Below, in pieces: positions 2,739-16,735 of a DNA stretch of 28,264 nt. The DNA is from a virus: IMG/VR virus record IMGVR_UViG_3300030390_001388, positions 1 through 28,264 of that record; one strand, 5' to 3'. The translations under genes were made by a program, and so were the position numbers. Below the pieces are notes generated by a model that saw only the letters and a program-made list of their open reading frames with translations, made no database searches and was not told where the DNA came from. Numbering within the stretch: the first letter of the stretch is position 1; each line of letters opens with the position of its first letter.

Positions 2739-2776
2739 AAAAGCACTTCTTAATTGAGGTGCTTTTTCTTTTTTAG
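2739..2776 (+). terminator. Strong rho-independent terminator
   Basis: AAAAGCACTTC (2739-2749) pairs with GAGGTGCTTTT (2756-2766), eleven pairs with one G-U, and a 6-base loop. A T-rich run follows to about 2774. This is the best terminator in the window. It ends the transcript of the 2211 gene and its T-tract touches the upstream box of the next promoter at 2775. Confidence 0.85.
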
Positions 2777-2820
2777 CTATAATATAGATATCAGTTTTTC
2801 GCGTAAACAGAGTATTTTTG
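2775..2820 (+). promoter_or_regulatory. Promoter P1: AGCTATAATA box plus TAnnTTTG (-7) element
   Basis: AGCTATAATA spans 2775-2784 and TATTTTTG spans 2813-2820, which matches the Bacteroidota -7 consensus TAnnTTTG. No TTG is present at the usual -33 distance. The start-to-start distance of 38 bases is identical in P2 and P3. The ATG served is at 2841, giving a short leader of about 15 bases. Confidence 0.65.
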
Positions 2821-2840
2821 TTAGTAATCAAAAAAACATT

Positions 2841-3578
2841 ATGGGAATTATAACACTAGACATATCGGCTCAGGATAATCAATCCCCAAACTCTACAGGT
2901 TGGTTAAGACTGCCCATTACTTTCGGACAGCTATATGTTTTTACGCTCGCAAATTTTACTACAGAGACAACTCCAGCGTATAATGACCCAGAAGGTGATG
3001 ATTTTGCTTCATTAAAAATTACATCACTCCCAGGAAAAGGTGTAATTTCCAACAATGGCTCTATAGTAACTGTTGGAAGTATAATCACATCAAGTGATTT
3101 GACGAATGGTAATTTTAAATACCAAGCAAATAGTGCTGATTTAGATGGATATACCGATGGTGAGATGGAATTTACAGTAACTGATGAGGGTTCTGGAGTT
3201 TACACCACATCCCCTAAAAGTGTAACTTTTGAAGTTGAGAGCAATATTAATAGAGGTCCAAGCTCTGTAGGAGATGGAGAAACAAATGTTGTTGTAGGTG
3301 AGTCAATAGCCATTACAAAAGCAATGTTAACTACTGGATTGAATCCTCCATACTCAGATCCTGAAGGAGACAACCCAAGTATGCTGCTAGTTGTTACTGT
3401 GCCTGAATATGGTGATTTAGAATTAGATGGTGTAATAGTAGTTGATGATCAGGAAATTTCTTTTGATGATATTGATGATGGTAAACTTTTTTATATAAAC
3501 AGAGAATTCCCTTCAGGAAATGTAGAGGGATTTGAATTTAAAATATCTGACGAAGGATCAGGACAATACAGAGGATAA
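2841..3578 (+). CDS. Two-module cadherin/CSPG-like adhesin
   Basis: A 245-residue protein. The frame extends upstream to a TTG at 2754, but that lies inside the terminator stem, so ATG 2841, just after promoter P1, is preferred. It contains two similar beta modules at about 30-135 and 140-245. Each has a Y-N/S-DPEGD motif (residues 47-53 and 171-177), a hydrophobic strand (SLKIT or MLLVVTV), and a 'D-x-x-x-G-x-x-x-Y' strand followed by DEGSG. This pattern is like CSPG/cadherin-like repeats, and the DPEGD acidic cluster suggests calcium binding. No signal peptide. It is paralogous to the gene at 13694: same size, same module order, same SVGDG linker. It is coupled to the next gene by TAATATG. 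Inferred role: a fibre or surface adhesin. Confidence 0.65.
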   Translation: MGIITLDISAQDNQSPNSTGWLRLPITFGQLYVFTLANFTTETTPAYNDPEGDDFASLKITSLPGKGVISNNGSIVTVGSIITSSDLTNGNFKYQANSADLDGYTDGEMEFTVTDEGSGVYTTSPKSVTFEVESNINRGPSSVGDGETNVVVGESIAITKAMLTTGLNPPYSDPEGDNPSMLLVVTVPEYGDLELDGVIVVDDQEISFDDIDDGKLFYINREFPSGNVEGFEFKISDEGSGQYRG

Positions 3579-3579
3579 T

Positions 3580-5058
3580 ATGGCAATTTTTAATTTCAAC
3601 GTAGATGAAGCGGATAATTTTAGTGTAGATATACATTCACTAATAGAAACTGATTGCGCATCAAGATACACATACAAAGTAAATGCAGAGAGTGGTGATT
3701 CTATCAGGTTCTCTTTAAGTCAGGGTTTTGACAATTCTTCATACACTATTCTTGGTGTAGAGACTGAGTTTACTTCAGAGACAACTATTGCATACCAAAA
3801 AGATTTATATATAAATTTTACTATATTAAATTCAGGTGTATCAGGAGTTTTTACAAACGTGTTAGTATCAGTAGATGATGATACTAATAATCTTCATTAT
3901 GAAGACAGGGTTACAAGATTAAATGACTCACTAAGATGTGGTCAAGTAGCTGGAGGAATTACTTATGACGAATTGACAGACACTCCTGACAATAAAACAG
4001 GTAATTCACTCAATCTTGTAAGAGTTAATTTAGAAGAAGATGCTTTAGAGTATGTTGATGCAGGTTTATTTGTTGATTTAACAACAAGTCAAAATATAGG
4101 AGGACTTAAAACGTTTAGTGATGTAGTTCGTATGAATACATCTACCGATTCAGGATATGAATTAACAGTAGGTGTAGCCAATGGCTCATATTCAATATTT
4201 GCAGAAGGAAGAGTATATGTAGATGGAGATGTTCGTAGCACGAGTATTACGTGTAATGGTATAGGTGAATTTAACGCACCAACAACAACATCAGGTCAGA
4301 AGACTGTTTTGAAGATAATTAATAACTCTTCAGCAGATCAGACGAGTGCTATGACGGCAGATATTGATTTTGCATTACAGGACGACAATACAACAAGTAG
4401 TACTCAAGCGAGGATTGGAATTGTAGGAAGTTCTACTGGAACTCAAGATGCAGAATCAGGTGGTAAGTTAGTATTTTATACTTCTACAGCAAGTTTTTCT
4501 AGTCCAACCTTAACTGAAAGAATGACAATAGATGATCAAGGCTTTGTGTCTGTTGGAGCTGCTCAGAATGGTTATCAAATGACGATAGGAAATAAGGGCT
4601 CAGGTTCAATCTTTGCGTTTGGAAAAATATTTACATCTGACAATGTTTATGCTGCTGGTAGTATTACTGGTAGCTCAATTTCTAAAGTTGGAGGAACAAG
4701 TTCTCAGTTTTTAAAAGCAGATGGAAGTGTAGACTCAAATGATTATCTAAGAAGTGACCAAAATGATACTAGTACGGGGACGATAACTGCAACTAACTTT
4801 ATATTATCTTCGGATGGTAGACTTAAAGAGAATGTTGAAGAGGTTAGTGACAAATCTATTAACGTAGATTGGAAGACCTTTGAGATGAAATCTAATAAGG
4901 GTCAAAAGAGATATGGAGTAATAGCACAAGAGTTAGAGGAAGTTCACCCGGAGTTTGTGAGAACAGATGACGAGGGAATGAAGTCTGTAGCTTATGTGGA
5001 CTTACTAATCGCTAAGATAGCTGAATTAGAAGCTAGATTAGAAAAAGCTGGAATATAA
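3580..5058 (+). CDS. Tail fibre/spike with C-terminal S74 self-cleaving chaperone
   Basis: A 492-residue protein from ATG 3580. An in-frame TTG at 3532 lies inside the upstream gene and is not preferred. The C-terminus (about 410-492) is a clear peptidase S74 / intramolecular chaperone domain: S411-D-G-R-L-K416-E-N, then YGVIAQELEEVHPEFV and a short coiled coil (IAELEARLEKAG). In this family the domain guides trimer folding of a beta-rich fibre, then cuts itself off at the serine of SDxRLKxN. The middle contains ITYDELTDTPDN...LVRVN, a linker style common in marine phage fibres, then Ser/Thr/Gly-rich beta sequence. Expected mature fibre: about residues 1-410, homotrimeric. The stop overlaps the next start by one base (TAATG). 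Confidence 0.88.
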   Translation: MAIFNFNVDEADNFSVDIHSLIETDCASRYTYKVNAESGDSIRFSLSQGFDNSSYTILGVETEFTSETTIAYQKDLYINFTILNSGVSGVFTNVLVSVDDDTNNLHYEDRVTRLNDSLRCGQVAGGITYDELTDTPDNKTGNSLNLVRVNLEEDALEYVDAGLFVDLTTSQNIGGLKTFSDVVRMNTSTDSGYELTVGVANGSYSIFAEGRVYVDGDVRSTSITCNGIGEFNAPTTTSGQKTVLKIINNSSADQTSAMTADIDFALQDDNTTSSTQARIGIVGSSTGTQDAESGGKLVFYTSTASFSSPTLTERMTIDDQGFVSVGAAQNGYQMTIGNKGSGSIFAFGKIFTSDNVYAAGSITGSSISKVGGTSSQFLKADGSVDSNDYLRSDQNDTSTGTITATNFILSSDGRLKENVEEVSDKSINVDWKTFEMKSNKGQKRYGVIAQELEEVHPEFVRTDDEGMKSVAYVDLLIAKIAELEARLEKAGI

Positions 5059-5495
5059 TGTCGGTTCCAAACACAACAACTTTTTCACTACAAGATGTAG
5101 TGGACGAGATTAGTCCATCAAATAAAAACTTATTAAGTTGCGTTTCCGAAGCTACTTTTGGGAGTTATGATGGGAATTACTTTTCATCGCCAGCTACTAG
5201 CTTATTGGAGTTTAGGAATTATGGAGGCTCGCAAGTATATACGTTATTTTATAGAAATGCTGCATCATCTGGAAGTTCTTTAGCGTGTAACACGGCAGTC
5301 ACTATACAAGTGTGGCATAATGGTTCAGGGGCTCTACCAGTTGATGGCGATAGAGTTTACGCATCTTCAAACGGATCAACACTTGTAGAGTCCGGAACAT
5401 ACGGATGGAATATTGCAAGCGGAAATACCCCTACGGCTTCAGCCTTTGTAAATACAAACGGGTTTGTTTCTAGCTCAGATTCATGCTTATTTTAA
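5058..5495 (+). CDS. Small tail-fibre-associated protein, unknown function
   Basis: A 145-residue protein that starts in the stop codon of the S74 fibre gene (TAATG), so the two are probably translationally coupled. The N-terminus (FSLQDVVDEISPSNKNLLSC, then LLEFRNYGG) resembles the start of short fibre-like proteins that recur in flavobacterial phage tail regions; this is recalled, not searched. The remaining 90 residues are Ser/Gly/Asn-rich with a beta-sandwich look. No membrane segment or catalytic motif. Four cysteines are present (C28, C77 and others). Position suggests a receptor-binding tip, accessory fibre or fibre-assembly protein. Confidence 0.6.
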   Translation: MSVPNTTTFSLQDVVDEISPSNKNLLSCVSEATFGSYDGNYFSSPATSLLEFRNYGGSQVYTLFYRNAASSGSSLACNTAVTIQVWHNGSGALPVDGDRVYASSNGSTLVESGTYGWNIASGNTPTASAFVNTNGFVSSSDSCLF

Positions 5496-5566: not shown

Positions 5567-6055
5567 ATGAGTTCAATTATAATTTTCTTCAAAACAATGA
5601 CTATAAGCAAGTATTTATTATTGCTTATAAGCCCTATTTTAATAATTATACTCAGTATGAAGACGATATTATTAGCCCTAGTAATTATAATATTTATAGA
5701 TTTGCTTACCGGAATAAGAAAGGCCCACTACAAGAACAAAATTAAATTCAGACCTTGGAAAAGTGAGTTCTGGAAAATAATAAGATCAAGTGCGCTTAGA
5801 AACACATGGAGAAAAACTACTGAATACGGTACAGGAATACTGGTATTCATATTATTGGACGCGCTAGTGTTCGATGAGTCACCATTGGTTAAAATTGGTT
5901 ATAATTATTCTTTAGCAGAGTTGGCAGCTATAGTTGCTTGCTTGGTAGAAGTGTATAGCATCTATGAAAATATGGAGGCAGTAAGCGGAAACAATCCCTT
6001 GAAAAGAATCCTTTCTTTTCTTCCTATAAAATTCAAAACAATTTTCTCGAAATGA
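5567..6055 (+). CDS. Holin (phage holin 4 / toxin-secretion holin-like)
   Basis: A 162-residue membrane protein. Hydrophobic segments lie at about 12-30, 32-49, 88-102 and 117-132. The second is followed by D45-L-L-T-G-I-R-K-A, and the C-terminal part carries EVYSIYENMEAVSGNNPL (about 128-145). The D-xx-TG motif and the S-I-x-EN...NP region are hallmarks of the holin_4 (Cph1-type) family. Holins oligomerise in the inner membrane and let the endolysin reach the wall. The gene overlaps the amidase by four bases (ATGA), a normal holin-endolysin pair. A second methionine at residue 11 could be an alternative start, giving a shorter form; which start is used cannot be decided here. Confidence 0.8.
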   Translation: MSSIIIFFKTMTISKYLLLLISPILIIILSMKTILLALVIIIFIDLLTGIRKAHYKNKIKFRPWKSEFWKIIRSSALRNTWRKTTEYGTGILVFILLDALVFDESPLVKIGYNYSLAELAAIVACLVEVYSIYENMEAVSGNNPLKRILSFLPIKFKTIFSK

Positions 6056-6465
6056 GGCAAATAGATAAGATAATTATTCATTGCGCTGCTACAAGAGAAT
6101 GTCAAGATGTCAAAACAGAAACAATAAGGCAATGGCATTTAGACAAAGGATGGAGTGACATAGGTTATCACTACGTTATAGAGCTAGATGGGTACTGTCA
6201 AAAAGGCAGAGACATTAGGTTGCAAGGAGCTCACGTAAAAGGGTTAAACAAAAACTCTATAGGCATATGCTATGTTGGGGGAGTAGCAGAAGATATGAGT
6301 CCGAAGGATACACGAACTGATCTACAAAAGGATGCGCTTAACATTCTTATTCGTCATTTAATGTCAAAGTATCCTAACGCAGAGTTATGTGGACACAATG
6401 AGTTCAGCCCAAAAGCCTGCCCATCTTTCAATGTAAAAGAACAATACAAAGATTTAATTCAATAA
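6052..6465 (+). CDS. Endolysin: N-acetylmuramoyl-L-alanine amidase (amidase_2, T7 lysozyme type)
   Basis: A 137-residue single-domain enzyme that cleaves the bond between N-acetylmuramic acid and L-alanine in peptidoglycan. All expected active-site residues can be read: zinc ligands H10 (IIIHCAAT), H115 (GHNEF) and C123 (KACPSF), plus Y39 (GYHYVI) and K121, matching His17, His122, Cys130, Tyr46 and Lys128 of T7 lysozyme. Length is close to T7 lysozyme (about 150). There is no signal peptide, so release depends on the overlapping holin. It sits at the end of the short lysis operon driven by P2. Confidence 0.93.
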   Translation: MRQIDKIIIHCAATRECQDVKTETIRQWHLDKGWSDIGYHYVIELDGYCQKGRDIRLQGAHVKGLNKNSIGICYVGGVAEDMSPKDTRTDLQKDALNILIRHLMSKYPNAELCGHNEFSPKACPSFNVKEQYKDLIQ

Positions 6466-9233: not shown

Positions 9234-9246
9234 TAGAGTAAAACTT

Positions 9247-9281
9247 AATCACCTTGGATTGTTCGTCTGAGGTGATTATTA
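9247..9281 (+). terminator. Terminator or mRNA-stabilising hairpin after the capsid gene
   Basis: AATCACCT (9247-9254) pairs perfectly with AGGTGATT (9270-9277) across a 15-base loop. The following ATTATAAATA is only weakly T-rich. Partial termination would lower expression of downstream genes relative to capsid; no clear promoter follows, so read-through is likely needed. Confidence 0.6.
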
Positions 9282-11022: not shown

Positions 11023-11059
11023 TTGATACAGATCCTTTATATTTGAAAAATAGTATCAA
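11023..11059 (+). promoter_or_regulatory. Candidate promoter/operator: TATATTTG centred in an inverted repeat
   Basis: TTGATAC (11023-11029) and GTATCAA (11053-11059) are a perfect 7-base inverted repeat. A consensus -7 octamer TATATTTG (11038-11045) sits almost exactly at the centre. There is no TTG at a -33 distance and no AGCTATAATA box. It may be a regulated promoter for the gene at 11091, or chance in AT-rich DNA. Confidence 0.35.
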
Positions 11060-11090: not shown

Positions 11091-12059
11091 ATGGGATTAG
11101 CTGGTCAAAACCAAGTTAGACACATGTACGTAGGTACTGCAGATAATGCGGCATCTATTTCAGCTTTGAAATCAAAAGCTGCAAACAGTTTAGTAGTATT
11201 AAGTAAAGACGGTTCTGCCGTTTCTGCCGGATCAAGCTTTAAACTATTTCAAAAGGATGCACTAGGAACCATTATCTCTAGTGATACCATCAAGGTAGAT
11301 AATGTATTAGACGTAAGATCTGTGCCACATGCTGCTGCTGTAAACAAAGTAGTAACTATTTCAGGTTTAAGTGTAGATGTCAATAGCTTATATACTGTGA
11401 GCATTGAGATTGACCAACATGGTTCTTTGTCTCAAGAAGACACTTACTTAAAGCAAGGTTATTATAAAGCTGCTGCTGGTAATACTGCTGAATCTATTGT
11501 AGATGGATTAATCGCGTCATTAAATCGTAATTTCGCTCGTGAAATAGGCGCAAATGCAAGTGAGAATCCTTACTTTGGTTTCTCTAAAACTGGATCAGGA
11601 TCTAATGCTGCACTAGTTGTAACAGGAAAGACTCAAGGGTCTAGATTTGATGGAGATAAGCACATTAAAGTTGTTGACTCATTTAACGTAGACATCTCTT
11701 GTGATACTTACCCAACTGTAACTGTAACTTCAGCTGCAAGTTCAGGTGTTGGAACAGGTTTCCAAATCATGGAAATGGAATACTTCTTACTTGGTGAAAG
11801 AGGCGATACCTACAGAAAAAGCGGATATCCTAACAATATAACTGGACCAGCATTAGTTTCTAACGCTTCATCTAGTTATAATGTGATTGAGATTTCTTAT
11901 TATGATGAGGGTCGTGACGAAGCTAAGAAAAGTAAAAAAGGATTAACTATTGCTGTACCTTTTACAACTTTATCTGCAAATTCTGCTATCAACACTGTTG
12001 TTACAGATTTGAATACTATCTTAGGTTCTGGTTCTATTAATGCTTTCTTAGAGTCGTAG
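11091..12059 (+). CDS. Candidate auxiliary capsid / major virion structural protein
   Basis: A 322-residue protein rich in Ala, Ser, Val and Thr with alternating beta-strand patterns and no membrane helix. Residues 1-130 look like one beta domain. Residues about 120-240 form another, containing EMEYFLLGERGDTYRKSGYPN, a segment I associate with a conserved crAss-like virion protein. Residues 260-322 contain the IEISYYDEGRDEAKK region. Position after the capsid genes and presence of its own spacer and terminator fit a highly expressed structural protein, for example an auxiliary capsid or decoration protein. A tail-tube role would be unlikely in a podovirus. Assignment is by position and weak recognition. 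Confidence 0.5.
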   Translation: MGLAGQNQVRHMYVGTADNAASISALKSKAANSLVVLSKDGSAVSAGSSFKLFQKDALGTIISSDTIKVDNVLDVRSVPHAAAVNKVVTISGLSVDVNSLYTVSIEIDQHGSLSQEDTYLKQGYYKAAAGNTAESIVDGLIASLNRNFAREIGANASENPYFGFSKTGSGSNAALVVTGKTQGSRFDGDKHIKVVDSFNVDISCDTYPTVTVTSAASSGVGTGFQIMEMEYFLLGERGDTYRKSGYPNNITGPALVSNASSSYNVIEISYYDEGRDEAKKSKKGLTIAVPFTTLSANSAINTVVTDLNTILGSGSINAFLES

Positions 12060-12081
12060 TCTAAACTAGATTAAATTTAAC

Positions 12082-12117
12082 AAAGGGGCTGGAGATTTAT
12101 TCCCGGTCCCTTTTTTT
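12082..12117 (+). terminator. Strong rho-independent terminator
   Basis: AAAGGGGCTGG (12082-12092) pairs with CCGGTCCCTTT (12103-12113), eleven pairs including two G-U, with a 10-base loop and a run of T to 12117. It closes the head operon before the adhesion-like cassette. No promoter consensus was seen between it and ATG 12141. Confidence 0.85.
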
Positions 12118-12140
12118 ATTAATTAAATTAAAATAAAAAT

Positions 12141-12722
12141 ATGGCTATTAGCGTAACAAAATTTATGGTAACTAATGATCTTACTACTATAGACTTAGAT
12201 GTTGAGGTTAATGCTGGACAGACTGTAACTCAAATATTATTTTGGGACCAGGATTCCTACAGAGACCCTTATAAGGCAGTAGACTTGACCTCATTACTTG
12301 CCGGAACTAGCAATACAGAGAGTCTTCAGATATCTACAAGTAATGCTGGTGAATCAACATTTAGCGGAATGTATTTTCTTCAGATTACCACAAGTGATAG
12401 TGAAGCTGCTGTAGTGGCTACATTTAACTTAACACAATATTATACAGTACAAGCAAAGTTAATTGCAAACATTGACTTATCATGCTTAAACTGTAATGCA
12501 AACTTTCAAAATGCACTTCTATTTGATTTGTATTTAGAGGCAACAAAACAAGCGTTATTGCTAGGAAGATACCAAGATGCAATAGATAACTTAGCAAATT
12601 TAATTATAACCATGGACACATCTAATTGTAATGATTGTAATGATATTAGTCCGGTAGTTTCAACTGCAGGAAATATAGTATCAGTTGGTGTAATTGACTG
12701 CGTAATAGCTGAGAACTCATAA
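12141..12722 (+). CDS. Cassette protein with two CxxC pairs, unknown function
   Basis: A 193-residue protein. Residues 1-105 are beta-rich (IDLDVEVNAGQTVTQILFWDQD). Residues 110-165 contain helical ALLFDLYLEATKQALLLGRYQDAIDNLANLI bracketed by C115-x-x-C118 and C163-x-x-C166, with a fifth cysteine at 187. The paired cysteines flanking a helical hairpin suggest a metal- or disulfide-stabilised knob. Similar cysteine-helix endings occur in flavobacterial phage proteins I recall, but I cannot name a family. It starts right after the terminator at 12082-12117, and its stop overlaps the next start by one base (TAATG). Inferred to be an attachment or assembly partner of the next gene product. Confidence 0.55.
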   Translation: MAISVTKFMVTNDLTTIDLDVEVNAGQTVTQILFWDQDSYRDPYKAVDLTSLLAGTSNTESLQISTSNAGESTFSGMYFLQITTSDSEAAVVATFNLTQYYTVQAKLIANIDLSCLNCNANFQNALLFDLYLEATKQALLLGRYQDAIDNLANLIITMDTSNCNDCNDISPVVSTAGNIVSVGVIDCVIAENS

Positions 12723-13678
12723 TGGAAAATAAGAACGCAAGAATATATGTAGCATCAGTAGCTAATGTTACCAAAAGATTAGTTCATTATGGTGACGTCA
12801 AGATAGAGAACATTAGCTTATTAAAGCTTATATACAAGTATTCGTGTTATTCTTCTACGTACTCTCAATTACAGAGACTAGATAAAATGGTAGCACATCT
12901 TCAAAGAGTGGATCCATATATTTGCTTAGAGAGGCAAGCAGCCTCAACAGCATCCTATACAGCTCCAGTAGGAATTGTAAATATAGGGGCTGACGGTAAT
13001 AATGCCCCAACATTAACTTCATCAGCAATAACTGCCAATGATTCGGGAGATCCATACGTATTTACTTACTTAGATTTATTCTCAGGATATTCTGACGATG
13101 GTAGTGGTAATATTGGAAGTTTTGTAGTTAATTCATTACCCGCCAATGGTACCTTATTGTATAATGGTTTTGAAATTACAATCGGAACGTTATTGTATGA
13201 CGTAACAAAACTGGTGTACAACAGAAGTGTTGATGATGCTTATTCAACATCATTTACCTACTATGCATACGATGATGATGCTCAATTGCCATTGCCATCT
13301 AATGCTGTTTCATGTGCTATTACAGTAGAGCAAATAACAGAAGATAATAATTTACCAACAATAGGTAATAGAAACATTTACGCAGACAACAGAACTACTA
13401 CAGTTCTTACATTGCAAGACTTCACGTCTTTAGCTGTTGCAGCTTATAATGATATTGATGGTGATCCATTGCAAGCAGTTAAGGTTATTGAGATCTCTGA
13501 GGTAAATAGTGGTACTTATTATTACTATGGTTCGGTCCTTACGGTTGGACAGATTATTACTGCAGATGAATTAAGTTCTGGCGCTCTTTATCATATAGCT
13601 TCAGATTCTAATGGAATAGCAACTGACACGCTAGAAGTAGCAATTAGGGATCATGAGGATTCAGATTGGGTAAATTAA
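12722..13678 (+). CDS. Surface protein: helical anchor plus cadherin/CSPG-like modules
   Basis: A 318-residue protein. Residues 1-75 are helical (LLKLIYKYSCYSSTYSQLQ, then LDKMVAHLQRVDPYICLERQ) and could bind the virion or the preceding protein. Residues 94-205 and 211-318 are two beta modules. The second (AYNDIDGD at 241-248, then ITADELSSGALYHI and LEVAIRD) closely follows the module pattern of the genes at 2841 and 13694. The first (SGYSDDGSGN, then GTLLYNGFEITIGTLLYDVTKLVYN) is a more divergent copy. The start is inside the previous stop (TAATG). Likely an adhesin on a virion fibre. Confidence 0.6.
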   Translation: MENKNARIYVASVANVTKRLVHYGDVKIENISLLKLIYKYSCYSSTYSQLQRLDKMVAHLQRVDPYICLERQAASTASYTAPVGIVNIGADGNNAPTLTSSAITANDSGDPYVFTYLDLFSGYSDDGSGNIGSFVVNSLPANGTLLYNGFEITIGTLLYDVTKLVYNRSVDDAYSTSFTYYAYDDDAQLPLPSNAVSCAITVEQITEDNNLPTIGNRNIYADNRTTTVLTLQDFTSLAVAAYNDIDGDPLQAVKVIEISEVNSGTYYYYGSVLTVGQIITADELSSGALYHIASDSNGIATDTLEVAIRDHEDSDWVN

Positions 13679-13693
13679 TTTAAAACAAAACAA

Positions 13694-14437
13694 ATGCTAT
13701 TAACAATAACTAATAGTGGGCTTTCTAATGGAAGGCCCACTTCAATAGGGTCTAATTCCTTTGACTTAGGAAGTACAGGAACGCATGTATTTTCAGTGGC
13801 TGATTTTACTACTGACACAAGTCCCGCATATTCTGATCCGGAAGAAGATTCATTAAAGTACATCAAAATAACACAGACATTAGAAGGTAATGGTAGTTTG
13901 AAGCTGAATGGAACTGAGGTTTCTATTGGTCAGCTTGTATATGCTGGAGATATATCTTCAGGAAATTTAATATATGATACACCTTCAGTGGAAGAAGATG
14001 AGGCATATTCAGATGTATTTAAGTTTGATTGTGCTGATTCAGGTTCTAGTTCTTTAAGCGGATTGGATACTGGCGTTATTACAATAAACATAGCTGCAAA
14101 AGCTAATCAGCCAGCAGATTCTGTTGGGGATGGAACAGTAAGTACAGCTTACGCTACAACAATAGTATTTACAAGGGCAGACTTTACAACAAGTACTAGT
14201 CCTCAGTATAGTGATCCTGAAGGAGATGTTGCAGATAAGTTAAAGATATTGACTTTGCCATCAGCTGGTGTATTGCAATTTAATAATTCAAACGTAAGTG
14301 CAAATCAAATAATTACATTTGATGAAATAGATGCTGGATATTTTCAGTATGTTCCAAGCACACTGGTGTTTGAATTACAACAAGAATCATTTAATTTCGC
14401 TATTGCAGACGCAGGGTCTGGAATATTCGTAGAATAA
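13694..14437 (+). CDS. Two-module cadherin/CSPG-like adhesin, paralogue of the 2841 gene
   Basis: A 247-residue protein. Modules lie at about 30-135 and 142-247, with SPAYSDPEED (43-52) and SPQYSDPEGD (169-178). A DSVGDGT linker (142-148) is at the same place as SSVGDGE in the 2841 product, and both proteins end within a few residues of a xxGSGxY/F motif. Such close agreement in size, motif spacing and end point indicates gene duplication. Strand patterns follow the CSPG/cadherin-like repeat, and acidic clusters suggest calcium binding. No signal peptide or anchor of its own. Its position behind the helical-anchor protein suggests they act together at the virion surface. Confidence 0.65.
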   Translation: MLLTITNSGLSNGRPTSIGSNSFDLGSTGTHVFSVADFTTDTSPAYSDPEEDSLKYIKITQTLEGNGSLKLNGTEVSIGQLVYAGDISSGNLIYDTPSVEEDEAYSDVFKFDCADSGSSSLSGLDTGVITINIAAKANQPADSVGDGTVSTAYATTIVFTRADFTTSTSPQYSDPEGDVADKLKILTLPSAGVLQFNNSNVSANQIITFDEIDAGYFQYVPSTLVFELQQESFNFAIADAGSGIFVE

Positions 14438-14447
14438 CTGAATAGTC

Positions 14448-14834
14448 ATGGGAGTAATGAATATAAATGTCTCTGAAGAGCTTATAGAAGACCCAGTAGG
14501 AACTGGAAAGGTTGGTGGTTTAATGACTTCTGAAGATGTGTGTAAAACAGAGTGGTCAATATTAGTTAAGACAACTACGTCTGTATGGGTTGAGTATGTG
14601 ATAGCTGGTGGAACAGGATCGGTAGATAAGATTAGTGGTAATCTTATTGCTGTTAATGGCGAAACATTGACTGAGGTAACAACATATAATGGAATTATTC
14701 AAGGATATCAATCTTATGATGAGAATCAAAATAATAATATTACTCAAATAACATTCACATTAAAAGATGCTGATGGTGGTAATGTCCTAGATACACAGAC
14801 CTTTACAAGGCTTAGCAATGGTAATTATTGCTAA
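14448..14834 (+). CDS. Small beta-rich protein of the adhesion cassette, unknown
   Basis: A 128-residue protein from ATG 14448; a second ATG at 14457 (residue 4) would remove three residues and could be the true start. The sequence is beta-rich (WSILVKTTTSVWVEYVIAGG) with two cysteines at residue 32 and the C-terminus (GNYC). No motif was recognised. It follows the adhesin by ten bases and precedes a terminator, so it is the last gene of the cassette. It may be an accessory fibre or tip protein. Confidence 0.5.
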   Translation: MGVMNINVSEELIEDPVGTGKVGGLMTSEDVCKTEWSILVKTTTSVWVEYVIAGGTGSVDKISGNLIAVNGETLTEVTTYNGIIQGYQSYDENQNNNITQITFTLKDADGGNVLDTQTFTRLSNGNYC

Positions 14835-14840
14835 CAAAAT

Positions 14841-14902
14841 AGCCATATAATAAAGTGTATCACAAATAGATGATACAATTACTTGACTTATATGGCTTTT
14901 TT
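14841..14902 (+). terminator. Nested-hairpin terminator overlapping a promoter
   Basis: AGCCATATA (14841-14849) pairs with TATATGGCT (14889-14897), followed by six T. Inside the loop a second perfect hairpin forms: TGTATCA (14856-14862) with TGATACA (14871-14877). The TTG of promoter P4 (14883-14885) lies just before the right arm of the outer stem. This ends the adhesion cassette. Confidence 0.75.
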
Positions 14903-14913
14903 CATTATATTTG
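14883..14913 (+). promoter_or_regulatory. Promoter P4: TTGAC, 20-base spacer, TATATTTG
   Basis: TTGAC begins at 14883 and TATATTTG spans 14906-14913, with 20 bases between TTG and the octamer. This is the classic Bacteroidota -33/-7 arrangement and matches P5 exactly in octamer and spacing. It lacks the AGCTATAATA box. ATG 14945 is 31 bases beyond. The -33 region overlaps the terminator stem. Confidence 0.75.
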
Positions 14914-14944
14914 CTGGTAAGTTTTATTAACTAAAATATTTTAA

Positions 14945-16060
14945 ATGCAAGATTTAGAGATTATCAAAGACTTCCTTAGAAGTAAAAATAGTTATTTAAA
15001 TGAAGGTAATCCAAAGATTCAAAGGTTCTTAGCCAACAGGTATAATGGTCACATATTTAGCTTTGGAGCAATTAAAAAAGCTAAAAAGGAAGTAAGAGCA
15101 GAGTTTAGTAATCTATTAAAACAAGAGGCTCCAATAGAAATAAAGGATCCAAAGATTGAAGTAACACCCGAGTTATTGGCAAAGTTTAACGAACTTGCTG
15201 TTCAAATGGGAATGAAGGGTATTCAAGCACCCGTATCTAAAGAAGATAAAGTAACATCTATTCTTCAGAGAAAAAAAGCTTTACGTGGGTTCCACACCCC
15301 TGAAATTAAGGATCAGGTTGGAATGCATATTTTATTAGGGTGCAATCACGTGCCTTTTCACAATAAGCAATTACACCGTGGTATCATGGAAATGATAAAA
15401 GACCACAAAGATATTATAAAAGGATTTCACTTATTAGGTGATTTCTTAGATTTAAATCCTTTATCATTTCATGACAAAGGTAAATTCACTGCAGTTCCAG
15501 GATTAACACTAAATGATGAGTACCAGATTGGGAGTGATTTACTACATGATTTTGACAGAGTATTACCTAAAGATGTATGGAAGACATATATTTATGGTAA
15601 TCATGAAGATAGATACAACAGATGGATGTCTGTTATGGACAATGCTAAAACACCATTAGTTTCTCCTGAAGAAGGAATGAGACTGTGGCAAAAAGGGTAC
15701 AATGTTAAAACTAGTTGGAGTCAAGACTTCGTGACTATAGGAAAAGACTTTGATATCTTTCATGGTATTTACTTTAGTATTCATAATGCTAAGGCTCACT
15801 TAGATAAATTGAGAAGGAGTTGTGCTTACGTACACACTCACAGATCTCAAGTTTATAGAGAAGGTCAAATGGCAGCATATAACTTAGGTGCATGCGCTGA
15901 CTTTTCTTCTAAAGCATTTAATTACGCAACAAGACCTATGAAGGCTCAATGGGCCAATGGTTTTGGAATTAATATGGTTGATGAGCACGGAACATCACAT
16001 GTAACACAAATACACGTAACACCTGATGGTCACTTCTATTTTGGTGGAAAATTTTATTAG
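14945..16060 (+). CDS. Calcineurin-like metallophosphoesterase-fold protein with altered first motif
   Basis: A 371-residue protein. Residues 1-125 are helical and basic. The phosphoesterase domain follows: motif I reads G-C133-N-H135-V-P-F-H-N, motif II GDFLD (165-169), motif III GNHED (218-222), a metal-ligand His at 273 (IFHG), and motif V VHTH (296-299). All metal-binding motifs are present except the first aspartate of motif I (normally D-x-H), which is Cys133. The enzyme may still bind one or two metals, or may be structural. Substrate is unknown; nucleic-acid or phosphomonoester hydrolysis are family possibilities. It begins the neck-tail operon under P4, seven bases before the next gene. 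Confidence 0.75.
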   Translation: MQDLEIIKDFLRSKNSYLNEGNPKIQRFLANRYNGHIFSFGAIKKAKKEVRAEFSNLLKQEAPIEIKDPKIEVTPELLAKFNELAVQMGMKGIQAPVSKEDKVTSILQRKKALRGFHTPEIKDQVGMHILLGCNHVPFHNKQLHRGIMEMIKDHKDIIKGFHLLGDFLDLNPLSFHDKGKFTAVPGLTLNDEYQIGSDLLHDFDRVLPKDVWKTYIYGNHEDRYNRWMSVMDNAKTPLVSPEEGMRLWQKGYNVKTSWSQDFVTIGKDFDIFHGIYFSIHNAKAHLDKLRRSCAYVHTHRSQVYREGQMAAYNLGACADFSSKAFNYATRPMKAQWANGFGINMVDEHGTSHVTQIHVTPDGHFYFGGKFY

Positions 16061-16066
16061 ATTATT

Positions 16067-16735
16067 ATGACTAAAAGAGAAATAATTTATGCAGTCTTTG
16101 AAAAGTTAAACATTCATTCTGATGACACAAGGTTGTCAGAGGAATTGGTTTCTTCTTTAATAGACACTAAAAGAGCTATGCTGTTAAAGCAGCAATACGC
16201 TAAGAGCTCTTGGCATATGCCAATTGAGATTAAACAAGAGATATGTGTTGATATATCACTAGTTGATAGGGTTGATGGATACTCATGCGCTGGTAAAATC
16301 CTTTCTACCAACATTGCTCTGCCAAGATCTATAAAGATTAAGGGAAAAGAGGGTCCACTTTCTGTCCGTAAAGAAGACGGAATGGAAATAAATATTAGTA
16401 TTGTAGCAATTGAAAGGATTCCTTTTCTATTTGAAAACAAATACACTCAACATTTAATATATTGCGCAGTTGATTTTAGTGGTAAACTTTTTATCATATC
16501 AAAAGACAATAAATTAAGATTTCTAAAGAGCATAAAAATAACTGACATATTCGAAAGCCCAGATGAGGCTAGAAATTACTCATGTAATTTAGATAATTCT
16601 ATTGAAGCATGGGACGATCAATATCCAATGGAATCTGCAATGGTAGATATTGCTGTTGATTTAGTAGTGAAAGAACTAACTAGATCATTATCCATTCCTG
16701 GTGACAATGTAAATGACTCTTCAGATGGAAGATGA
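16067..16735 (+). CDS. Conserved crAss-like tail/neck structural protein
   Basis: A 222-residue protein. The N-terminal helix (TKREIIYAVFEKLNIHSDD, then IDTKRAMLLKQQYAK) and the C-terminal WDDQYPMESAMVDIAVDLVVKEL segment are patterns I associate with a conserved family in the structural block of crAss-like phages. Its place, two genes before the ring protein that precedes the muzzle, suggests a tail ring or hub component; the exact identity is not determined. No membrane or catalytic motif. Its last 23 bases overlap the next gene, which argues for coupled translation. Confidence 0.65.
   Translation: MTKREIIYAVFEKLNIHSDDTRLSEELVSSLIDTKRAMLLKQQYAKSSWHMPIEIKQEICVDISLVDRVDGYSCAGKILSTNIALPRSIKIKGKEGPLSVRKEDGMEINISIVAIERIPFLFENKYTQHLIYCAVDFSGKLFIISKDNKLRFLKSIKITDIFESPDEARNYSCNLDNSIEAWDDQYPMESAMVDIAVDLVVKELTRSLSIPGDNVNDSSDGR

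Follow-up and report, generated by a model that had tools for sequence, protein, structure and literature searches.

Four open reading frames (ORFs) of a crAss-like phage, named here C1 to C4, are suggested with a probability of roughly 0.75 to form the tail-fibre docking hub of the phage, at its ordinary place but in a diverged form, with the hub genes fed by read-through of a terminator. The ORFs lie on a stretch of 28,264 bases (the window), an IMG/VR fragment with the record IMGVR_UViG_3300030390_001388, between the gene of the auxiliary capsid protein (AuxCP) and a metallophosphoesterase (MPE) gene at 14945. An initial annotation had placed genes at 12141, 12722, 13694 and 14448, which was confirmed (ORFs 12141–12722, 12722–13678, 13694–14437 and 14448–14834), and had regarded them as an exchangeable adhesion cassette. 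The locus rather appears to be an ordinary virion locus that was misread as an inserted cassette, and the conserved hairpin preceding it, which may regulate its expression, is considered the more interesting item.

C1 as a tail hub protein A homologue

12141–12722, + strand: C1, homologue of tail hub protein A (THA), 193 aa, assigned by AlphaFold2 model, profile comparison and gene order

When the AlphaFold2 model of C1 was searched against the PDB with Foldseek, the top three rows were tail chains of phage crAss001 (E-value about 1e-6). One such chain, 7qoj_G (1.2e-6), is identified as 'Tail hub protein A gp38' of crAss001, and the C1 model was found to have the gp38 fold over most of its chain (VIA Z 13.2, rmsd 2.5, 148 residues aligned to a target of 177), the best unrelated entry reaching a VIA Z of 8.2. 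Comparison by hhalign of the C1 profile with 11 THA sequences gave an E-value of 1.4e-5 with most of the length covered, against 0.6 for C4 and 0.42 for C3 as controls in the same comparison. Among 52 C1/THA-like ORFs, the C1 profile was matched by 51, the THA profile by 24 and both by 23 (E ≤ 1e-3). Four of five intermediates tested (loci L158, L153, L157 and L114) passed the cut-off of Pfam crAss_THA (PF25724), with L096 falling below it. Judged by these matches, intermediate phages connect the C1 and THA families by sequence.

Gene order is in agreement. A C1/THA gene follows AuxCP in all 52 loci with room for it, with one ORF intervening in crAss001, L088 and L144. In crAss001, a homing endonuclease, gp38 (THA) and gp39 (tail hub protein B, THB) lie between gp36 (AuxCP) and gp40 (ring 2) (PMC10172136). 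The interruption of a block of conserved structural genes, as seen in the initial annotation, was not confirmed: C1 is itself one of the conserved genes, and crAss001 keeps its hub genes at the same place. The orthologue of C1 in Cellulophaga phage phi14:2, gp098, is annotated as structural by tandem mass spectrometry (MS/MS). The predicted fold together with these comparisons makes C1 a divergent homologue of gp38 (THA) of crAss001, and the homology is counted as shown.

A conserved hairpin between capsid and hub genes

12083–12118, + strand: hairpin resembling an intrinsic terminator, separating the capsid from the tail hub genes, identified by fold energy, conservation and covariation

Directly after the AuxCP gene lies a GC-rich hairpin followed by a T run, with a folding energy of −18.8 kcal/mol (z −4.5; none of 200 shuffles as stable). 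A strict scan found a strong terminator at the AuxCP–C1 boundary in 14 of 14 genomes and in none of the 14 at each of the g6555–MCP (major capsid protein), g9356–R34 and R34–AuxCP boundaries. The hairpin was detected in 61 of 66 distinct intergenic sequences, that of crAss001 included, as against 10 of 231 random segments; by group it was present in 15/15 sequences of the clade of the window, 35/39 environmental, 10/11 gut and 1/1 for phi14:2. The five sequences counted as failures were L088, L102 and L108, which have a hairpin in a wider scan, and L096 and L030, which have a stem with a poor T run; the hairpin of L130 was weak in the wider scan. In the clade alignment 98.2% of cells pair and four pairs change on both sides, a covariation score reached by none of 500 shuffles. 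It is the most conserved non-coding feature found.

A strong stem also stands directly 3' of the MCP gene in all 15 loci, its loop usually being TTCG and its T run weaker in the window clade; at this place the strict scan accepts 7 of 14. In the window itself, a 14-bp stem with a TTCG-containing loop is located at 9246–9278, right after the MCP gene. There was no match to Rfam within the window, and a generic terminator scan of the window missed both the AuxCP hairpin and a second hairpin described below. A literature search limited to open-licence articles in PMC returned no title on a terminator at this head-tail boundary.

The hairpin probably turns expression down between the capsid and tail genes. 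The host polymerase is believed to transcribe the late genes of crAss-like phages (PMC10136315), and in crAss001 each capsid asymmetric unit has nine MCP and nine gp36, with a collar of 12 hubs, each of two THA and one THB (PMC10172136). Attenuation by read-through may set such a capsid-to-tail ratio, and an attenuator placed behind the high-copy gene would be a cheap way of doing so. No shared promoter was seen between the terminator and C1; this, with the conservation of the terminator, favours read-through, one of the two sources of expression that the initial annotation had named for these genes.

C2 and the question of hub protein B

12722–13678, + strand: C2, 318 aa, helical N-terminal domain in the THB position followed by cadherin-like domains, from the model and the phi14:2 orthologue
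12722–12946, + strand: C2 residues 1–75, candidate THB-equivalent domain, from position, three predicted helices and weak sequence evidence
13010–13339, + strand: C2 residues 97–206, cadherin/CSPG-like domain, from the predicted model compared with structures

The start codon of C2 overlaps the final base of C1, so that C2 is the gene directly after the THA homologue, and its first 63 residues are predicted to form three helices. In environmental relatives the protein after C1 likewise opens with a helical domain, either alone (86 aa, L096) or extended. Compared with THB, the N-terminal domain of 32 environmental sequences gave an E-value of 0.014 (0/200 shuffles), and a protein of L071/L078 gave 3.5e-5 within a set of 48 sequences. 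It is likely that the helical N-terminus of C2 is tail hub protein B, as suggested by its position and a weak sequence similarity. The C2 gene is split in L009 (75 + 247 aa); the first part was rejected as a stand-alone THB, as the break lies inside the domain and may be a frameshift. In the gut phages, the hub B protein of cr106_1 (L024:3518–4171) has 218 aa as against 90 aa in cr112_1, so C-terminal extensions of hub B occur there too.

Fold search matches of the C2 model were dominated by the cadherin-like domain, residues 97–206 giving a VIA Z of 8.6 to neck/collar chains of Agrobacterium phage Milano and of 8.0 to a CSPG4 fragment. In its C-terminal part, C2 is homologous to C3 (hhalign E 3.4e-29). 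The phi14:2 orthologue of C2, gp094, is annotated as structural by MS/MS.

C3, C4 and a second copy beside the tail fibre

13694–14437, + strand: C3, cadherin-like adaptor candidate, 247 aa, phrog_22884 (E 1.4e-54), a homologue of the gene at 2754 and of the C-terminal stretch of C2
14448–14834, + strand: C4, 128 aa, shaftless, homologous to the N-terminal domain of the tail fibre, from hhalign
2754–3578, + strand: C3 paralogue adjoining the tail fibre gene, phrog_22884 (E 4.4e-46), Pfam Cadherin_3 (E 2.9e-7); the ATG at 2841 is the likelier start
3580–5058, + strand: tail fibre with C-terminal Peptidase_S74 chaperone (Pfam E 7.1e-11); its N-terminal domain (3580–3945) is related to C4

C4 and the N-terminal domain of the fibre were aligned by hhalign over 121 columns (probability 76.9, E 2.1e-5, 0/150 shuffles). 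A single BLASTP of C4 against the fibre gave a chance alignment only, outside the N-terminal domain, and the link rests on the profile comparison. The window C3 scored 18.9 bits against cadherin-like Pfam models, below the cut-off of 25.5, and the gene at 2754 passes the cut-off of such a domain; among 13 family members, 6 match Cadherin_3 and 9 match Cadherin_4 at E ≤ 0.1. The term adhesin-like, used in the initial annotation for all four genes, can be kept for C2 and C3, which are cadherin-like, and not for C1 and C4. In phi14:2, the C3 orthologue gp091 is annotated as structural by MS/MS and the C4 orthologue gp090 is without such a note.

In the window, L067–L070 and L075, the C3 paralogue has a tail fibre gene as its neighbour. 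Searches of 16 whole records found a C3-like domain in 15, crAss001 being the exception, and C4 in 10. Because C4 is homologous to the fibre and the gene at 2754 is a paralogue of C3, C3–C4 and 2754–5058 are regarded as two copies of one plan: as read from these comparisons, each has a cadherin-like adaptor and after it a fibre base, which bears a shaft in the 2754–5058 copy only. An adaptor function is proposed for C3–C4. As C4 is absent in several relatives, the pair is not essential. At L088:16899–17702 and L107:11520–12311 are proteins of 263–267 aa to which the C4 profile aligns in separate segments, apparently with two C4-like domains in L107. In L047 (11718–12014) and L048 (11719–12015), both contigs without C4, a 98-aa ORF between C2 and C3 is weakly similar to the window protein at 5058–5495.

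Collinearity and divergence

Twenty loci were collected, of which 16 span AuxCP to ring 2, and three added later brought these to 19; some contigs are near-duplicates. The order C1, C2, C3 is kept in 19/19 of these loci, and C4 is found in 15/19 (in L015 by position and profile), being absent from L018, L019, L047 and L048. Protein distances follow those of seven flanking genes, with Mantel r of 0.72 for C1, 0.83 for C2 and 0.69 for C3 (0/500 permutations each) and 0.50 for C4 (1/500). Mean identity is 52% for C2, 55% for C3 and 30% for C4, against 63–90% for the seven flanking genes. As the distances track the flanks, C1–C4 are inherited with the block and merely diverge faster. The collinearity of C1–C3 and a divergence that follows the flanks thus argue that the locus is not an exchangeable cassette within the clade, contrary to the view of an inserted module.

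The initial annotation had looked to distant relatives for a decision: the four genes are collinear inside the clade and not in all distant relatives. Phage phi14:2 keeps the C1–C4 orthologues in order, with 3, 2 and 3 extra genes within C1–C2, C2–C3 and C4–MPE, respectively. Among the 80 relatives kept for the more remote comparison, what follows the second hub gene varies in gene number and gene size, and in remote environmental relatives this content changes freely. The site thus accepts surface genes over long periods, behind a fixed hub pair.

Promoter-like elements and the second hairpin

14841–14902, + strand: hairpin before the MPE gene, inner arms at 14857–14876 (GTATCA...TGATAC)
14883–14913, + strand: promoter-like TTGACT-N17-TATATTTG, by motif match
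11024–11058, + strand: TGATAC-N23-GTATCA, an inverted repeat enclosing TATATTTG and a candidate promoter 5' of the AuxCP gene (0.02 expected by chance)

Both hairpins named in the initial annotation are real, being far more stable than their shuffles; that at 14841–14902 has −18.1 kcal/mol (z −4.9). The annotation had described the latter as a nested terminator joined to a promoter, P4. The promoter-like element was found, and of 20 sources scanned a similar one precedes the MPE gene in 9 of the 14 that belong to the window clade, the window among them. The outer stem of the hairpin is not general: a strong terminator was found at the C4–MPE boundary in 2 of 7 genomes. The promoter-like element is the sole match to TTGACT-N14-20-TANNTTTG in the window, and 14 of 100 shuffles have at least one. 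A generic sigma-70 scan was uninformative (22 found versus 24.1 expected).

An inverted repeat such as that at 11024–11058 is also present in the R34–AuxCP gap of L001, L005, L008, L009, L010, L012, L013, L015 and L016, and in L011 and L020 both arms of it change together. Its half-sites recur convergently at 14857–14876. This candidate promoter could feed the AuxCP gene and, via leak, the hub genes. Another GTATCA...TGATAC repeat is located at 3865–3884 of the window, inside the tail fibre gene.

Flanking genes

11091–12059, + strand: AuxCP, upstream flank (Pfam crAss_AuxCP, E 1e-35)
14945–16060: MPE gene, between the hub genes and ring 2, with its own promoter-like element
16067–16735, + strand: ring protein 2, downstream flank (Pfam CrAss_Ring_2, E 3.4e-33)

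Besides AuxCP at 11091 and ring 2 at 16067, Pfam names the genes of the major capsid protein (7734), ring 3/4 (10263), ring 1 (17258), muzzle (17937) and cargo protein 1 (22059). Identity to the MPE of the window is 76% in L011 and L020, about 56–61% in most others and 22–23% in L018; crAss001 is without an MPE gene at the position between hub and ring 2. At 5567–6465, between the tail fibre and capsid genes, lie a holin-family gene and, after it, a gene for an N-acetylmuramoyl-alanine amidase.

Interpretation

It is proposed that C1 would serve as tail hub protein A, while the helical N-terminus of C2 would most likely supply tail hub protein B and would carry the cadherin-like domains outward, away from the collar. 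An adaptor pair would be formed by C3, which is cadherin-like, and C4, a shaftless fibre-base domain; it would be a duplicate of the 2754–5058 pair, in which the same base domain would bear the real fibre. Transcription of the hub genes would come from the late block, by reading through the conserved terminator after the high-copy AuxCP gene, and the leak would set a low expression of the tail hub against a high one of the capsid. A wider proposal, held at a little under even odds, is that an RNA attenuator at the boundary of head and tail genes is common to crAss-like phages from the gut, the sea and elsewhere: transcripts running from capsid to tail genes would have to leak through the one conserved hairpin after AuxCP, a further stem standing after the MCP gene, and this would fix a ratio of capsid to hub subunits of roughly 540:24; behind the hairpin would stand a fixed hub pair with lineage-specific arms derived from a duplicated unit of adaptor and fibre base.

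Several observations speak against the docking hub. C1 has no Pfam match at E ≤ 1, PF25724 included, and because it lies below detection by that model it is termed a divergent homologue and is not assigned to the Pfam family in the form of that model. Its clade profile finds no sequence match in the PDB, and no credible relative came out of sequence searches there, whether the query was C1 itself, the C1, C3 or C4 profile or the profile of the C2 N-terminus. The mean pLDDT of the C1 model is 69.9, with the last 39 residues below 50, and the pTM of the C2 model is 0.40. The N-terminus of C2 gave an hhalign E-value of 0.45 against THB, the clade alone being not distinguishable from shuffles; the score of the pooled set was reached by 10 of 200 shuffles, and the THB candidates tested were unmatched by Pfam crAss_THB (PF25711). 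Of 14 related virus contigs, 5 lack C4, and so does crAss001. With regard to expression, the genes of ring 3/4 and g9356, whose products are presumably needed in few copies, stand before the terminator.

An exchangeable surface-adhesion cassette, inserted between the head and tail genes, would account for the cadherin-like C2 and C3, for the faster divergence of C2–C4 than of their flanks, and for the variation after the second hub gene in remote relatives, phi14:2 carrying extra large tail genes here. Within the clade it is contradicted by C1 being a hub protein, by the 19/19 collinearity of C1–C3 and by distances which track the flanks, and it is held to be very improbable. Should C2–C4 instead be capsid fibres or Hoc-like ornaments, with C1 alone belonging to the tail, their position directly after the AuxCP gene and the 'head and packaging' category of phrog_22884 would be explained, and crAss001 does have immunoglobulin-like head fibres. 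The PHROG label is an annotation, however, the note of phi14:2 itself saying only 'structural protein', and the relation of C4 to the tail fibre base, the C3 paralogue beside the tail fibre gene and the start of C2 in the THB position all point to the tail, making head decoration improbable.

For the hairpin, a role as a 3' end stabilising the capsid mRNA, or as a full terminator bypassed by an antitermination factor, would require the same anatomy as an attenuator, and the second stem after the MCP gene, in 15/15 loci and with a weaker T run in the window clade, fits such a role. The T run and the specific placement are the only features that favour termination over it, and this alternative is considered rather unlikely. 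On the preferred reading, a docking hub behind a leaky terminator, four unannotated genes become a named part of the virion, and a rule is obtained for fibre hubs missed by Pfam in crAss-like phages, namely to look just 3' of the hairpin after AuxCP. A simple and deeply conserved RNA element may also govern the stoichiometry of the virion in these very abundant viruses, of which crAss001 and phi14:2 are cultured.

Comparison with known systems

In phage T7, the intrinsic terminator T-phi likewise stands after the capsid gene and before the tail genes, although it is recognised by T7 RNA polymerase. The collar proteins of Agrobacterium phages Milano and 7-7-1 have a fold in common with C2 residues 97–206 (Z 8.6 and 7.8), but these Z values are middling and near that of mammalian cadherins, a likeness of fold without evidence of common descent. 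Phage phi14:2 has orthologues of C1–C4 (gp098, gp094, gp091 and gp090) in the same order, three of them structural by MS/MS, and differs from the window in eight further genes among and after the four, including that of a 1275-aa tail protein. In comparison with gp38 and gp39 of crAss001 (PF25724, PF25711), the window differs in having C1 below Pfam detection, the N-terminus of C2, the candidate THB, fused to cadherin-like domains, and two further genes (C3 and C4) together with the metallophosphoesterase. It resembles crAss001 in the fold of C1, in the order of AuxCP, hub A, hub B position and ring 2, and in the hairpin before hub A.

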